A DNA stretch of 35,118 nt from Candidatus Sungiibacteriota bacterium (GTDB lineage: Bacteria > Patescibacteriota > Minisyncoccia > Sungbacterales > HO2-52-23): assembly GCA_016206285.1 (NCBI GenBank), contig JACQRW010000019.1, positions 1-35,118 on the forward strand, read 5' to 3'. Of the stretch, positions 28,806 to 34,646 are shown one piece after another. The notes under the pieces are model-generated. The model did no database searches. It was not told the DNA's origin and saw only the letters and a list, made by a program, of their open reading frames with translations. A program made the translations under genes and the position numbers. Numbering within the stretch: position 1 is the stretch's first letter; each line of letters begins with the position of its first letter.

Positions 28806-29849
28806 ATGGCTCAAATTCAACTTCCTTTTTCGCCGCGCGAGGCGAGTAAAACAATTCTCAAAAAACTGGCAAGCCGCCGCATGCAAGATGTGATTAAGCG
28901 GCGTTTTGGTCTTGCAGGCGGCAAGGTTGCTACGCTTGAATCCATCGGCAGAGAGTATAAAATTACACGCGAGCGCGTACGCCAGATTGAAGCTGATGCG
29001 CTCAAACTGCTGCGCAAAGAAGAAAATCTTGCTGAGCTCCAGCCTCTTTTTGGAGTGCTTGAAGCGCGTTTGGCGAGCTTTGGCAATGTTGCGGCCCACC
29101 ACCGGTTTTTGGCAGAGTGTGCCGATAAAGCGCACCATCGTGATCTGGTGCTGCTCCTTACGCTGAACAAAATTTTCCAGAAGATTCCGGAGACTGATGT
29201 TCACCACGAACGATGGTCGCTTGACCGCTCAGTTGCGGCAGATGTCGAGAAAGTGCTTGCCGGAGTTTCTGCCGATCTTGGGAAAAGCGGAGTTACGGTT
29301 CCGGAGAAAAAACTGTATGAAATTGCGGCAAAAAATGCCGCAGATGTGATGGGGCATGAACCGGAGCAGCGTGTACTCGAAGCCTATCTTGCCACTTCCA
29401 AGATGATCCAGAAAAATCCCTATGGCGAGTACGGCCTTGTTTCCTGGCCTACGGTCAGCCCTACCGGAGTGAAAGACAAGGCATATGCCGCGCTCATGAA
29501 GTCAAACCAACCATTGCATTTTCGGCAGGTTGCGTCGGCCATAGACGCAGCAGGATGGAGCAAGCGCAAGGCTCATCCGCAAACCGTGCATAATGAGCTG
29601 ATCAAAGATAAGCGCTTTGTGCTGGTGGGCAGGGGTTTGTATGGTCTTGCTTCATGGGGATTTGAACCCGGAGCAGTGCGCGAAGTGCTGGTATCGGTGT
29701 TCAAGGCCGCCAAAAAACCGCTTTCCAAAGACCAGGCAGTCAAACTCGTGCTTGAAAAGCGGGCCGTAAAGCCGCAAACCATTCTTTTGAATCTCCAAAA
29801 CAAATCTCTTTTCCGCAAAACGGAAAACGAGGAGTATACGCTTGTATAG
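28806..29849 (+). CDS. Regulator: sigma-70 region-4 HTH plus HARE-HTH domain
   Basis: A 347-residue, apparently soluble DNA-binding protein. Residues 44-71 (LESIGREYKITRERVRQIEADALKLL) are a clear sigma-70 region 4.2 helix-turn-helix, the part that reads the -35 box. There is no region 2, so it cannot be a complete sigma factor. Residues about 222-288 (KAYAALMKSNQPLHFRQVASAI then FVLVGRGLYGLASWG) match the HARE-HTH domain found in RNA polymerase delta and in DNA-modification proteins. A second winged-helix-like repeat seems to follow (291-345: KPLSKDQAVKLVLEKRAVKPQTILLNLQ). It probably binds promoters or RNA polymerase. The gene has the strongest promoter in the window and its own terminator candidate. 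Confidence 0.82.
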   Translation: MAQIQLPFSPREASKTILKKLASRRMQDVIKRRFGLAGGKVATLESIGREYKITRERVRQIEADALKLLRKEENLAELQPLFGVLEARLASFGNVAAHHRFLAECADKAHHRDLVLLLTLNKIFQKIPETDVHHERWSLDRSVAADVEKVLAGVSADLGKSGVTVPEKKLYEIAAKNAADVMGHEPEQRVLEAYLATSKMIQKNPYGEYGLVSWPTVSPTGVKDKAYAALMKSNQPLHFRQVASAIDAAGWSKRKAHPQTVHNELIKDKRFVLVGRGLYGLASWGFEPGAVREVLVSVFKAAKKPLSKDQAVKLVLEKRAVKPQTILLNLQNKSLFRKTENEEYTLV

Positions 29850-29875
29850 AAAGGGCAATACGAGTTACAATAACA

Positions 29876-29926
29876 CTGTGCCGGAGCGAATTTGCCAACG
29901 CCTCGCACAGTTGTTTTTTATTTTAA
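29876..29926 (+). terminator. Probable terminator after 28806 regulator
   Basis: CTGTGC (29876-29881) pairs with GCACAG (29905-29910), with imperfect inner pairing, followed by TTGTTTTTTATTTT. Confidence 0.65.
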
Positions 29927-29934
29927 ATTTTTAT

Positions 29935-31284
29935 ATGCCTTTTGATAATTCCGCAACTTCCCAGATTCTCGAAGGTATCGCGGCATTCCGGTCCTGGATC
30001 ATCAGCATCTGGTGGCTTTGGGTGTTCCCGATCCTATTTCTTTTGGCGCGGTCTTTGTGGCTTGCCTATATTCGCGAGTGGTACCGGAGGCATCTGGTGT
30101 GGTCCATGTATGAACTGAAAATCCCGCGGGAAATTCTTCGCTCGCCCCGCGCCATGGAGCAGGTGCTTGCCTCCATCTATGCACTTGTCAATTCTCCGGG
30201 CAACATCAAAGAAACGTGGTGGGACGGGGAAGTAACGAAGTGGTCCTCTTTGGAGCTGGTTAGCTTTGGCGGCGAGATCCGATTTTTTATGCGTGCGACA
30301 AAAGACAATTGGACCATGGTACAGACAGCGCTCTACTCCCAGTATCCGGATCTTGAACTGGTTGAGATTCCGGAATCCGAGGACTATATCCACCGCATGC
30401 CGCCGACCGCCGAAGAGGTGCTGAAAATCCCGCGCCGTCTTTTCGGCAGCGAGCAAATTCTTTCCCGGCCCGACGTATATCCGATCCGTACGTATGTTGA
30501 TTTCGAGGAATCCGAAGAGGATTTCCGGCTTGACCCGTTCGCGACCCTGTTGGAAGTACTTGGCAAGTGCGGCCCCAAAGAGGAACTATGGATGCAGATA
30601 TTGATCAGGCCGGTGCTTGGCGATTGGTGGAAAAATAAAGGAGAGGCGGAAATTGAGAAACTCAAAGAAAGAAATACGCAAAAGATCGTGAGCCAGGAAT
30701 ACGGCGAGACTTCGATGACGCGCCTCTATCCCGGGTTCGGTGATGCCGAACTCATCAAGGCGATTGACAAAAACATCGCCAAGCCTGCTTTTGAGACCGT
30801 GATTCGCTATCTGTATATGACCGCACCCGAAGCATATAATTCAAATTTCGCCCGCCGCGGCGTTGCATCAGCGCTCAATCAGCACGCTTCAAAAGCATTC
30901 AATGAGTTTTACTATAACAAGGGCTCGGCCACGCGCGTGGAATACCACTTCGGGATAATTCCGCCCTTCTTTCCCAAGCGCCGGTATCTGGCGCGGCAGC
31001 GAAAAATTTATCGGCATTACCGCGAGCGTTACATCTATCCGCAGTCATTTGCGGAAAACATTTTGGAGCTCAAAGGATTTCATTTTGGCATTTGGGGTTG
31101 GAAAACTTCGCACATGGTGCTCAATACCGAAGCGCTTGCCACGATCTACCATCTGCCGACCAAACCGGTCATGTCCGCACAGCTTATCCGCAAGGTGGAG
31201 GCCCGGAAGATCGGCCCGCCCATGGGTCTTGCCATATTCGGCGAGGAAGACGAACGCGCCGATTTGCCGGGTATTGGAAAATAA
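29935..31284 (+). CDS. Membrane-anchored partner of HerA/TraG-like ATPase
   Basis: A 449-residue protein with one N-terminal hydrophobic helix (about 20-45) followed by a basic stretch (REWYRRHLVW) and a large cytoplasmic part. The segment WTMVQTALYSQYPDLELVEI (about 126-145) resembles the N-terminal region of VirB4/TraC-like conjugation proteins. No Walker motifs are present, so it is not an ATPase. It is a family of unknown function that I associate with Patescibacteria genomes. The ATPase gene follows 42 nt later; together they could form a membrane-anchored DNA or protein pump. ATG 29935 gives a sensible N-terminus; the open frame back to 29842 crosses the preceding terminator. Confidence 0.75.
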   Translation: MPFDNSATSQILEGIAAFRSWIISIWWLWVFPILFLLARSLWLAYIREWYRRHLVWSMYELKIPREILRSPRAMEQVLASIYALVNSPGNIKETWWDGEVTKWSSLELVSFGGEIRFFMRATKDNWTMVQTALYSQYPDLELVEIPESEDYIHRMPPTAEEVLKIPRRLFGSEQILSRPDVYPIRTYVDFEESEEDFRLDPFATLLEVLGKCGPKEELWMQILIRPVLGDWWKNKGEAEIEKLKERNTQKIVSQEYGETSMTRLYPGFGDAELIKAIDKNIAKPAFETVIRYLYMTAPEAYNSNFARRGVASALNQHASKAFNEFYYNKGSATRVEYHFGIIPPFFPKRRYLARQRKIYRHYRERYIYPQSFAENILELKGFHFGIWGWKTSHMVLNTEALATIYHLPTKPVMSAQLIRKVEARKIGPPMGLAIFGEEDERADLPGIGK

Positions 31285-31326: not shown

Positions 31327-32790
31327 ATGGCCAAAGAAGGAAAAATTCATCTTTCAAAATATGCGCCGCCCCCGTCGGATCTGCCGATATACCAGCAGAT
31401 TGATCCGAAAGATGTTTCATTTATCGGACGCACCAATTATGAGGCGCCGATGGAATCTAAAAAATATATTTTCGGGATCAAGCGCAAAGACCGCCGCCGG
31501 CACGTGTATATTGTCGGCAAATCCGGCGTGGGCAAGTCAAAGCTGCTGGAGCTTTTTGTACGCCAGGATATCGTATACAATTACGGACTTTGTTTTATTG
31601 ATCCGCACGGCGATGTAATAGAGGAGATTTTAAAATTTATTCCGGAGGAACGGATTGATGATGTGGTACTGATTGATCCGTCTGATGCCGAATACCCGAT
31701 CTCGTTCAATCCGTTACAAAAGGTTCCGGTGGAGCTGAAGCATCAGATGGCGCAGGGGCTGATCGAGGTCATGGAAAAGCAATTCGGCGCCAATTGGACG
31801 CCGCGGCTTGAGCATGTATTCCGATTTACGGTGCTGGCTTTGCTTGATTACCCGGAAGCTACGCTGCGCGGCATGATCTCGATGCTGACGGACCGGCCGT
31901 ACCGCCAGCGCGTGATCGAATATATCACCGACGATATGGTGCGGAGGTTTTTTGCGGTCGAGTTTGCCGACTGGTCGGAGAAATTCGATACGGATGCCAT
32001 CGTGCCGCTTGTCAACAAGTTGGGGCAGTTTCTTTCCATGCCCATGCTTCGCAATATTTTTGCGCAAAAAGAGAACAAGCTCGATTTGGAGGAGCTTATC
32101 AATACAAAAAAGATTGTGCTTATCAATCTTTCCAAAGGAAAGATTGGGGAAGAAAACTCAAGCTTTTTTGGTTCGATGTTTATCACTAAAATTAAGCAGG
32201 CCGGCATGGCGCGTGCCGAAATGCCGGAAGAAGATCGAAGCGACTTTTATCTCTATGTTGATGAGTTTCAGAATCTCGTGACAGATTCGTTTGTCAACTT
32301 GTTCTCCGAGGCAAGAAAATACGGATTGAATATCGTGGTGGCTCACCAGTATACGGCGCAACTACCCCCCTCTCTGCTTGCAACCGTGCTCGGAAATGTT
32401 GCAAATTTGATATCGTTCCGTGTTGGAGGCGATGATGCCCAACGGCTTGAAACCGAATATACGCCGGTTTTCAAGGCAAAAGATATGATCAACCTTGGCA
32501 TGCAGGAGTTTTATATCAAAGAGACGATTGACGGCGAGACCTATGATCCGTTTTCGGCGCAGACTTTGAAAATTTTCCCGCCCACGCATCCGCCGTATAA
32601 GAACCGGATTGTCGAGCAATCGCGCAAAAAATATGCCATGCATCGGGATGATGTGGCGCGTATGCTGAAAGAGGAGGAAGAGTCGGTCCTGTTTCGAAAG
32701 AATCCCTCGACCAGCTCGGGACAAGCGGCTTCCGCAATAGAGACTCAGCAGCAACCGCAACAAGAATCCCATCCCGAACCGCTGATTTAG
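31327..32790 (+). CDS. HerA/TraG-like DNA-translocating ATPase
   Basis: A 487-residue FtsK/HerA-superfamily ATPase of the VirD4/TraG type without its own membrane segments. Walker A GKSGVGKS (64-71), IDPHGD (91-96) as in TraG/TraD relatives, Walker B FYLYVDEFQN (307-316), and VVAHQYTAQL (337-346) with the sensor Gln. Relatives pump DNA or couple substrates to a type IV channel. Its partner at 29935 carries the membrane anchor that VirD4 proteins usually have themselves. The low-complexity C-terminal tail contains STSSGQA (about 461-467), encoded by a dispersed repeat (32704-32726), then a Gln-rich end. No relaxase, pilin or VirB-like genes are in the window, so a full conjugation system is not shown. 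Confidence 0.85.
   Translation: MAKEGKIHLSKYAPPPSDLPIYQQIDPKDVSFIGRTNYEAPMESKKYIFGIKRKDRRRHVYIVGKSGVGKSKLLELFVRQDIVYNYGLCFIDPHGDVIEEILKFIPEERIDDVVLIDPSDAEYPISFNPLQKVPVELKHQMAQGLIEVMEKQFGANWTPRLEHVFRFTVLALLDYPEATLRGMISMLTDRPYRQRVIEYITDDMVRRFFAVEFADWSEKFDTDAIVPLVNKLGQFLSMPMLRNIFAQKENKLDLEELINTKKIVLINLSKGKIGEENSSFFGSMFITKIKQAGMARAEMPEEDRSDFYLYVDEFQNLVTDSFVNLFSEARKYGLNIVVAHQYTAQLPPSLLATVLGNVANLISFRVGGDDAQRLETEYTPVFKAKDMINLGMQEFYIKETIDGETYDPFSAQTLKIFPPTHPPYKNRIVEQSRKKYAMHRDDVARMLKEEEESVLFRKNPSTSSGQAASAIETQQQPQQESHPEPLI
32704..32726. repeat. Dispersed element inside ATPase gene, - orientation
   Basis: CCCTCGACCAGCTCGGGAC and the following AAGC are the near-exact reverse complement of the element at 25839-25866 (common core GCTTGYCCCGAGC ... 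GTCGAGGG). Read in this direction it encodes PSTSSGQA. Confidence 0.72.
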
Positions 32791-32888: not shown

Positions 32889-34646
32889 ATGCAATCGGAG
32901 AACAAAATTTGTCAAAACTGCAAAAAAGAATTCCTCATTGAGCCGGAGGATTTTTCGTTTTACGAGAAGGTGAAGGTTCCACCGCCGACCTGGTGTCCGG
33001 ACTGTCGGATGATCCGACGGTTTTTGTTCAAAAATGACCGGTCACTATTTCGGCATAAAGACGAGGCATCGGGGAAAGAGATTTTCTCCAGTTTTCCTGC
33101 GCAGGCGGCAGTTAAAGTGTATGACCGCGAATACTGGTGGTCTGACAAATGGGATGCAATGGCATACGGCCGCGATTATGATTTTTCCCGTCCGTTTTTT
33201 GAACAATTTCGAGAATTGCTTTATACGGTTCCGCTATTTTCGAAAAGCGTACTTGGTAACATAAATTCCGACTATTGCGATAACGCCGGGTTTTTAAAAA
33301 ATTGCTATCTCTGTTTTGATCTTAATTATTCGGAGAATTGCGCATATGCGGTAAAAGGCACTTCACTAAAGGATTCGTTTGATACCTATGAAGTGGCCAA
33401 AAGCGAGTTTTGCTATGAGAGTGTCATACTGGAAGAAAGCTATCGCGTATTTTTCTCGATAGATTGCGAGCGGTGCACCGATGTATGGTTTTCAAAAGAT
33501 CTGACCAGCTGCAACAACTGTTTTGGTTGTGTGAATTTGCGTAATAAATCCTACTATATTTTTAACAAGTCATACTCAAAAGAAGAATATTTTGAAGAAT
33601 TAAAAAAATTGAATGCCGGGTCATATCGTTCGATGCGGGATATACTTCAAAAGGCACATGAACTTTGGATACAGTTTCCCGTCAAGTATTTCCATGGATA
33701 TCATAACGTGAATGTAAATGGGCAATTGCTCTATAACGACAAGAATGTGCATCAGTCCTATTCCGTACAGGATGCCGAAAATGTAAAATATTCCCAAATG
33801 CTGCTTCCAAAGACCAGCGAGGCGTACGATTACTCAACCTTTGGAGTGAACGCTTCGCTGGTGTACGAGTGTCTTACCTCCGGATTCAACAGTTCCGGAC
33901 TCCGATTTTGTTGGGAGTGTTGGGATGGATGCCGTGATCTGGAATACTCTACCTATTGTAATACATCCTCAAATCTGTTCGGCTGTGTAAGTTTGCGCAA
34001 AAAAGAATATTGCATCTTTAATAAGCAGTATTCAAAAGAGGACTATTTTGCTCTGCGCGAAAAGATCATCCAACATATGAATGATATGCCGTACACCGAT
34101 GCACAAGGAAGAGTGTACCGCTACGGCGAGTTTTTTCCGCCGGAATTTTCTCCGTTCGCATACAATGAAACGCTCACGCATGACTTTTTCCCATTGTCCA
34201 AAGAAGATGCCGAAGTCCAAGGATATGTATGGCGCGAGCCGGAAGTGCGGGAATTTCAGACAACTATAAAAGCAGAGGATTTGCCCGATCACGTCGATGA
34301 CGCGACTGACGATATTCTCAAAGAAGTGATCGGGTGTGCTGTATGTAACAAAGCTTATCGTTTTATCCCCATGGAGCTTGCGTTTTACCGGAGCATGGGG
34401 ATCCCGCTGCCGCGTGCTTGCCCAAACTGCAGATTTCTTGAGCGGTTCAAACTTATCAATCCGCCCAAATTCTGGAGGCGCGCGTGCCAGTGCAATGGCG
34501 CCGCGGATGAACGGAATATCTACCAAAATGCCGCCACGCACCCGCACGGCGCAGGCAAATGTCCGAATGAGTTTGAAACCAGCTACTCTCCGGAAAAACC
34601 AGAAATCGTTTACTGCGAGAGCTGTTACCAGAATGAAGTGTTGTGA
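32889..34646 (+). CDS. Cys-rich protein with duplicated zinc ribbons
   Basis: A 585-residue protein of unknown function and unusual build. N-terminal zinc ribbon C8-C11/C36-C39; a second, homologous ribbon near the end, C483-C486/C511-C514 (both fit CxxCxKx(E/A)(F/Y)...(P)xx(W/A)CPxCR); and a third set of cysteines in the tail (Cys533, Cys535, Cys558, Cys576, Cys579). Between them (about 130-390) lies a Cys, Asn, Ser and Tyr-rich region with a regular short period, which could be a right-handed beta-helix. It contains a long internal repeat: FGCVNLRNKSYYIFNKSYSK (212-231) and FGCVSLRKKEYCIFNKQYSK (364-383). No signal peptide. I recall similar proteins being common in Patescibacteria, often under unrelated database names. 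RNA or DNA binding is plausible but unproven. Confidence 0.82.
   Translation: MQSENKICQNCKKEFLIEPEDFSFYEKVKVPPPTWCPDCRMIRRFLFKNDRSLFRHKDEASGKEIFSSFPAQAAVKVYDREYWWSDKWDAMAYGRDYDFSRPFFEQFRELLYTVPLFSKSVLGNINSDYCDNAGFLKNCYLCFDLNYSENCAYAVKGTSLKDSFDTYEVAKSEFCYESVILEESYRVFFSIDCERCTDVWFSKDLTSCNNCFGCVNLRNKSYYIFNKSYSKEEYFEELKKLNAGSYRSMRDILQKAHELWIQFPVKYFHGYHNVNVNGQLLYNDKNVHQSYSVQDAENVKYSQMLLPKTSEAYDYSTFGVNASLVYECLTSGFNSSGLRFCWECWDGCRDLEYSTYCNTSSNLFGCVSLRKKEYCIFNKQYSKEDYFALREKIIQHMNDMPYTDAQGRVYRYGEFFPPEFSPFAYNETLTHDFFPLSKEDAEVQGYVWREPEVREFQTTIKAEDLPDHVDDATDDILKEVIGCAVCNKAYRFIPMELAFYRSMGIPLPRACPNCRFLERFKLINPPKFWRRACQCNGAADERNIYQNAATHPHGAGKCPNEFETSYSPEKPEIVYCESCYQNEVL

Follow-up and report, generated by a model that had tools for sequence, protein, structure and literature searches.

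Effector arrays whose members share a domain that binds the type IV coupling protein (T4CP) are known in Bartonella and Xanthomonas. The Bep effectors of Bartonella, which carry the BID domain, are encoded as a paralogous array near the VirD4 locus of a VirB/VirD4 type IV secretion system (T4SS). The X-Tfe antibacterial effectors of Xanthomonas are diverse proteins with one coupling-protein handle, the VirD4-interacting domain XVIPCD, and act between bacteria. T4CPs connect substrates with the type IV secretion channel, and Patescibacteria encode thousands of VirD4-type coupling proteins, mostly distant from virB4, for which no role has been settled (PMC12102498). In one cultured member of the phylum the T4SS is essential; what it moves is unknown, and protein export has been suggested (PMC10633639). 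Here we analyzed a gene family, named F, that is tied to one group of these coupling proteins. No description of the family was found in the open-access literature searched, and we could not find an earlier description of the architecture of its protein.

The window was a stretch of 35,118 nucleotides from a Candidatus Sungiibacteriota bacterium (JACQRW010000019.1), and all features given below lie on its + strand. The F gene (32889..34646) has an ATG start and encodes 585 residues, predicted to comprise zinc module A, two β-solenoids, a linker and zinc module B. A sequence-only reading of this gene had proposed that the first 40 residues and residues of about 483-515 follow the same Cys pattern, and that residues 212-231 recur at 364-383. 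The CxxC motif at residues 8/11 and its partner at 36/39 indeed have the same spacing as those at 483/486 and 511/514, and residues 8-62 aligned without gaps to residues 483-537 with a BLOSUM62 score of 99. The second repeat sits within a longer match, residues 196-241 to 348-393, which was the best ungapped self-alignment (score 124). The maximum score in 200 shuffles of the protein was 57, so both repeats were well above shuffled sequence and longer than had been stated, and the proposed internally duplicated architecture stands. That reading missed three things described below: that F forms a family of ten copies, that it has a partner ATPase, and that the middle Cys residues are structural and do not bind metal.

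Zinc ribbon A (residues 7-43, with C8, C11, C36 and C39; 32907..33017) is zf_Tbcl-like. Its PF13451 score of 16.7 bits was below the Pfam cut-off of 24, and membership by score was not met; the CxxC...CxxC pattern of zf_Tbcl was met, with the four ligands complete in 137 of 140 homologues. It is followed by a degenerate second zinc-finger-like segment (residues 45-99; 33021..33185), which resembles by eye the stand-alone zinc proteins of loci L073, L081 and L084. The column of residue 58 holds Cys in 111/140 homologues and Asp in the window protein. Zinc ribbon B (residues 481-520, with C483, C486, C511 and C514; 34329..34448), recognized from the self-alignment, has all four Cys in 112 of the 140 homologues, and those without them still keep the surrounding motif. 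A third zinc-type site, zf_Tbcl_2/LIM-like, lies at the C-terminus (residues 529-585; 34473..34643) and is formed by C533, C535, C558, C576 and C579, of which at least four are present in 134/140 homologues. This site matched LIM profiles (E=0.004), and zf_Tbcl_2 (PF23477) was matched in homologues. Among 69 homologues searched with Pfam, zf_Tbcl was found in 15 and zf_Tbcl_2 in 14. Occupancy of these end sites by zinc is inferred. A paralogue type in which both ribbons lack most Cys occurs in two genomes, on contig C21 of the same genome as the window (L010, 551-2296) and at L014 (13558-15303), and is possibly a specialized subtype. In the L061 copies, the loop of ribbon A is lengthened (FYDKVSPVYNNKKYQVPPPTLC) and Cys residues of ribbon B are replaced by His or Glu.

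The middle region was assigned to β-solenoid 1 (about residues 121-235; 33249..33593), made of 12-residue coils, and β-solenoid 2 (about residues 264-380; 33678..34028), a duplicate of the first according to the repeat of score 124. A helical linker follows (residues 381-478; 34029..34322), predicted by AlphaFold2 and conserved, with low column entropy over residues 376-435. The short regular period that had been read in the middle was recovered in the conserved small and hydrophobic positions. For residues 121-228 these have a period of 3, reached by none of 2000 permutations, and a period of 12 (p=0.025); for residues 276-380 the period of 12 was also found (p=0.012). Residues 121-228 can be written as 12-residue units such as LKNCYLCFDLNY, SENCAYAVKGTS, LKDSFDTYEVAK and SEFCYESVILEE, with a core position at each third residue. 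Periods of 5 and 6 had no power in the repeat, and membership of the pentapeptide or hexapeptide solenoids was not met.

The AlphaFold2 model of F, built on an alignment of 144 sequences, had a mean pLDDT of 91.3 and a pTM of 0.91, with ends resembling zinc ribbons and a middle of repeated beta structure; it was weakest in the first solenoid (pLDDT 65-72 over residues 151-210). A 307-residue stand-alone relative of the F middle (L074) was modelled with a pLDDT of 82.1 and strands at 12-residue spacing. In Foldseek searches, hexapeptide-type solenoids of the PDB ranked first for the window protein with TM-scores of at most 0.19, and β-solenoids were mostly near the top for L074 without real superposition (TM <0.2). 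Only the zinc ribbons matched viral models well (rmsd 0.6-0.7 over about 40 residues). The suggestion of a β-helix capped by zinc ribbons is thus supported by the model and the 12-residue repeat, and neither outcome that would have refuted it, a known enzyme fold for the middle or a model without repeat symmetry, was obtained. We conclude that the middle consists of two β-solenoids of 12-residue coils, as a model-based prediction of class with no known fold matched. Like the earlier reading, the searches did not place F in a described functional family; neither profiles nor solved structures accounted for the protein as a whole. A match to Med15_N (PF09606; 23.9 against a cut-off of 24.1) covered only 31 residues of repeat and helix and was treated as chance, and NCBIfam and PDB sequence matches of the single protein were at chance level.

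Directly upstream of F is a gene (31327..32790) for a VirD4/TrwB/HerA-like ATPase with the Walker A motif GKSGVGKS, named V-A. It scored above the cut-off for PF10412 (30.2 bits, cut-off 20.5) and PF01935 (26.3 bits) and just under it for PF12696 (21.6 bits, cut-off 22), and the TrwB_AAD_bind test for a VirD4-type T4CP was therefore met. The preceding gene (29842..31284, start codon uncertain) encodes a membrane-type protein of 480 residues, named N, which profile searches and gene order identify as a separate N-terminal half of the T4CP; in other lineages N is fused to the ATPase. A second T4CP near F, named V-B, carries a zf_Tbcl_2 finger in 10/10 cases plus L040, followed by a variable, partly Pro-rich tail. 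A protein with Sigma-70 region 4 and HARE-HTH is encoded at 28806-29849 of the window, adjoining SecD/SecF-like genes. Sigma/HARE, N and T4CP follow each other in this order in further Paceibacteria, whether or not F is present. Three genomes without F (G007, G020 and G026) keep the locus order N, V-A and V-B, some of them also with the SecD-SecF-sigma/HARE and EF-P genes, which looks like a loss of F from the locus. No further conserved partner genes were identified, as only N recurs and the HTH, DnaJ and DnaK genes represent local synteny.

The link between F and the T4CP was strong. Among 286 genomes sampled across the phylum, F was present in 21, V-A in 22 and both in 20 (Fisher p=1.7e-27), V-A thus being present in 20 of the 21 genomes with F and in 2 of the 265 others. 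The V-A subfamily threshold (E <= 1e-135) was fixed alongside the phylum-wide F search, before either result was seen; V-B genes fall barely under it (3.3e-135), and at 1e-140 the overlap was still 18/19. In 55 relatives, V-A was found in 10/12 genomes with F versus 3/43 others. These genomes are related and the p-values were not corrected for phylogeny, though the shared set spans about ten families. G010 and G049 are exceptions with F and without V-A. Within the relatives, 16 of 28 T4CP genes had an F gene no more than 5 kb away, against an expectation of 1.24. They involved three T4CP types, and some share one locus, leaving about eleven independent loci. In the T4CP phylogeny, an F-associated clade (support 0.97) unites Paceibacteria, the fused forms and Microgenomates; its F-less members are only four genes, nested among F-linked ones. 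Co-occurrence and adjacency meet the genetic-link test for a T4SS effector, that is, a T4CP substrate.

Split forms of F, with one gene for the zinc module and an adjacent one for the solenoid, were detected in Microgenomates (L073-L075), G109 and G159 (L081 and L084). The order at L084 is T4CP, a 318-aa solenoid and a 115-aa zinc protein, and the T4CP is convergent at L073-L075. The split zinc proteins scored above the zf_Tbcl cut-off (30.1, 36.6 and 32.5 bits), with a weak zf_Tbcl_2 match in 2/3. The existence of both split and joined forms argues, by gene fusion, for a joint function of the parts.

The genome of the window (754 kb, 24 contigs) encodes ten F copies. Nine of them form one array on contig C21 (13.0-30.6 kb), on a single strand and often overlapping end to start. 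The array is broken by an opposite-strand gene (L010 5911-6744; C21 25911-26744) whose product starts like a secreted protein. Nearly all F relatives in public genomes belong to Patescibacteria. Copy number ranges from 1 to about 20 per genome, the highest count coming from a single stretch of one contig (L018/L019, where one gene is listed twice); some copies are fragments or interrupted. A contig labelled Burkholderiales (JAMPXW010000002.1; L049, L051 and L053) contains F arrays, V-A and V-B that cluster with Patescibacteria copies, and is probably mis-binned. A viral origin of F was rejected, as 2.9 million viral contigs gave one match, consisting of the last 123 bases of L079 and cut by the contig end. 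Searching 50,697 phage records with tblastn gave no support to a match to phrog_15341 (E=0.006).

Only 16 of 126 F copies had their nearest tree neighbour in the same genome; the copies are old and distinct. Recent tandem duplication was rejected as the source of the arrays, because the nearest relative is usually in another genome. Between orthologues of two related genomes, DNA identity was 0.91-0.99 in the middle and 0.70-0.88 at the ends in three of the five pairs examined; the fourth was nearly even throughout and the fifth had diverged in the first solenoid. The nearest relative by DNA was in the same genome for 63 of 149 copies at codons 1-45, for 61/149 at codons 541-585 and for 9/149 at codons 136-180. 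This U shape is not explained by conservation alone, since the equally conserved codons 361-405 gave 21/149. At protein level the effect was weaker (26 and 39 at the ends versus 14), and part of the DNA-level pattern may come from shared codon usage. The ends are thus homogenized within a genome, an outcome expected both from gene conversion and from a common fit of the ends to a single partner. Positive selection was rejected, with dN/dS of about 0.05-0.2 among orthologues.

Common ends, copy-specific middles and one co-inherited ATPase suggest a handle-and-specificity design. We tentatively favour the reading that F is a repertoire of proteins that serve the co-inherited T4CP as substrates or as adaptors for substrates, and give it a little short of even weight. 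By analogy, it is preferred because T4CPs connect substrates to the channel and because of the Bartonella and Xanthomonas arrays. The zinc ends would be a shared handle recognized by the ATPase, or by a receptor common to all copies, an inference without binding data, and each solenoid is inferred to bind its own copy-specific target. The repertoire would then comprise protein substrates of the type IV route, or adaptors bringing other cargo to the T4CP, with the host microbial cell of the organism as the probable, inferred recipient. No signal peptide or transmembrane helix was detected in F, which is consistent with a putative one-step route from the cytoplasm. F and the V-B T4CP share the zf_Tbcl_2 module. 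A VirB4-type ATPase (PF19044) occurs in 19 of 20 genomes with F, which is weak evidence given that VirB4 is common in Patescibacteria anyway (PMC12102498). Against this reading, the F-associated T4CPs are not beside virB4, two genomes have F and no V-A, and the strong purifying selection seen among orthologues would be unusual for arms-race effectors. Moreover, one T4CP of Ca. S. epibionticum is non-essential while other T4SS genes are essential (PMC12102498), so T4CPs here may have other roles.

F might instead stay in the cell as the specificity subunits of a HerA/VirD4-like DNA pump, its zinc ends binding DNA or the ATPase and its solenoids choosing targets in DNA uptake, export or chromosome handling. 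T4CPs are DNA pumps, HerA-type domain matches occur in this one, treble-clef fingers often bind nucleic acid and zinc module A carries a net positive charge (median +8 per 100 aa). This remains unlikely, as the solenoids are near neutral, the linker is acidic and no conserved nuclease or relaxase lies beside the F and T4CP genes. DNA mimicry by the solenoid was likewise rejected on its near-neutral charge. A large hetero-oligomeric scaffold or filament, with the F copies as subunits joined by their zinc ends and the T4CP as assembly motor, would fit the old, distinct copies, the joint expression suggested by same-strand, often overlapping genes and the common use of solenoids as structural rods; a copy number between 1 and about 20 is odd for a fixed assembly, and we consider this improbable. 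Marginally less credit is given to anti-phage or anti-plasmid defence by a HerA-like ATPase with a repertoire of recognition proteins. F is patchily distributed, with tandem copies and fragments, and PADLOC gave a mad8 match (E=4e-13) and HerA matches for V-A. These weak matches are probably at the level of the ATPase superfamily, however; PADLOC gave no match for N, for the separate solenoid and zinc proteins or, at E up to 0.01, for F, and housekeeping genes (SecDF, sigma/HARE, EF-P) make up the syntenic surroundings of the locus, which is not a defence island. The 30 Cys among 585 residues could also indicate a metal store or redox protein, which we regard as very improbable. Only the end sites are conserved, and the middle Cys occupy solenoid core positions, where they interchange with Ser, Thr, Val, Ile or Leu among the 140 homologues, indicating core residues and not metal ligands.

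The substrate or adaptor reading therefore remains our preference, and the results suggest a previously undescribed protein set handled by one type IV secretion motor in a tiny, parasitic-type bacterium. With slightly greater reserve, we propose a new Patescibacteria-specific system of zinc-capped solenoids with gene-converted ends and diversified middles, which the T4CP would deliver into host microbes or use to choose cargo. F is a concrete and abundant candidate for a T4CP client, being large, recognizable, co-inherited with one T4CP clade and testable by binding.

Compared with known systems, F resembles the Bartonella Beps in forming a paralogous array near a VirD4-type gene and in having a putative shared handling part and other parts that vary. 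However, Pfam hmmscan up to E=10 found neither BID nor XVIPCD in F, it ends in zinc modules, the VirB genes are located in other parts of the genome and translocation is only inferred. With the Xanthomonas X-Tfe proteins it would share the principle of one coupling-protein handle, but F has one architecture throughout and no recognized toxin domain. The VirB2 pilin arrays of Patescibacteria T4SSs (PMC12102498), from the same phylum, likewise consist of tandem paralogues that have diverged and are associated with a type IV system; they are unrelated small pilins near virB4, whereas F is large, cytosolic and zinc-capped. The small zf_Tbcl (PF13451) and zf_Tbcl_2 (PF23477) zinc proteins are related in their modules, both of which are recognizable in F homologues and occur in that order in the split zinc gene, while F adds two solenoids and has a zinc module at each end. 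Pentapeptide-repeat and other β-solenoid proteins include the top structural matches, but F differs in its 12-residue coils, a period of 3 instead of 5 and TM-scores <0.2, and adds a solenoid architecture without a close solved relative.
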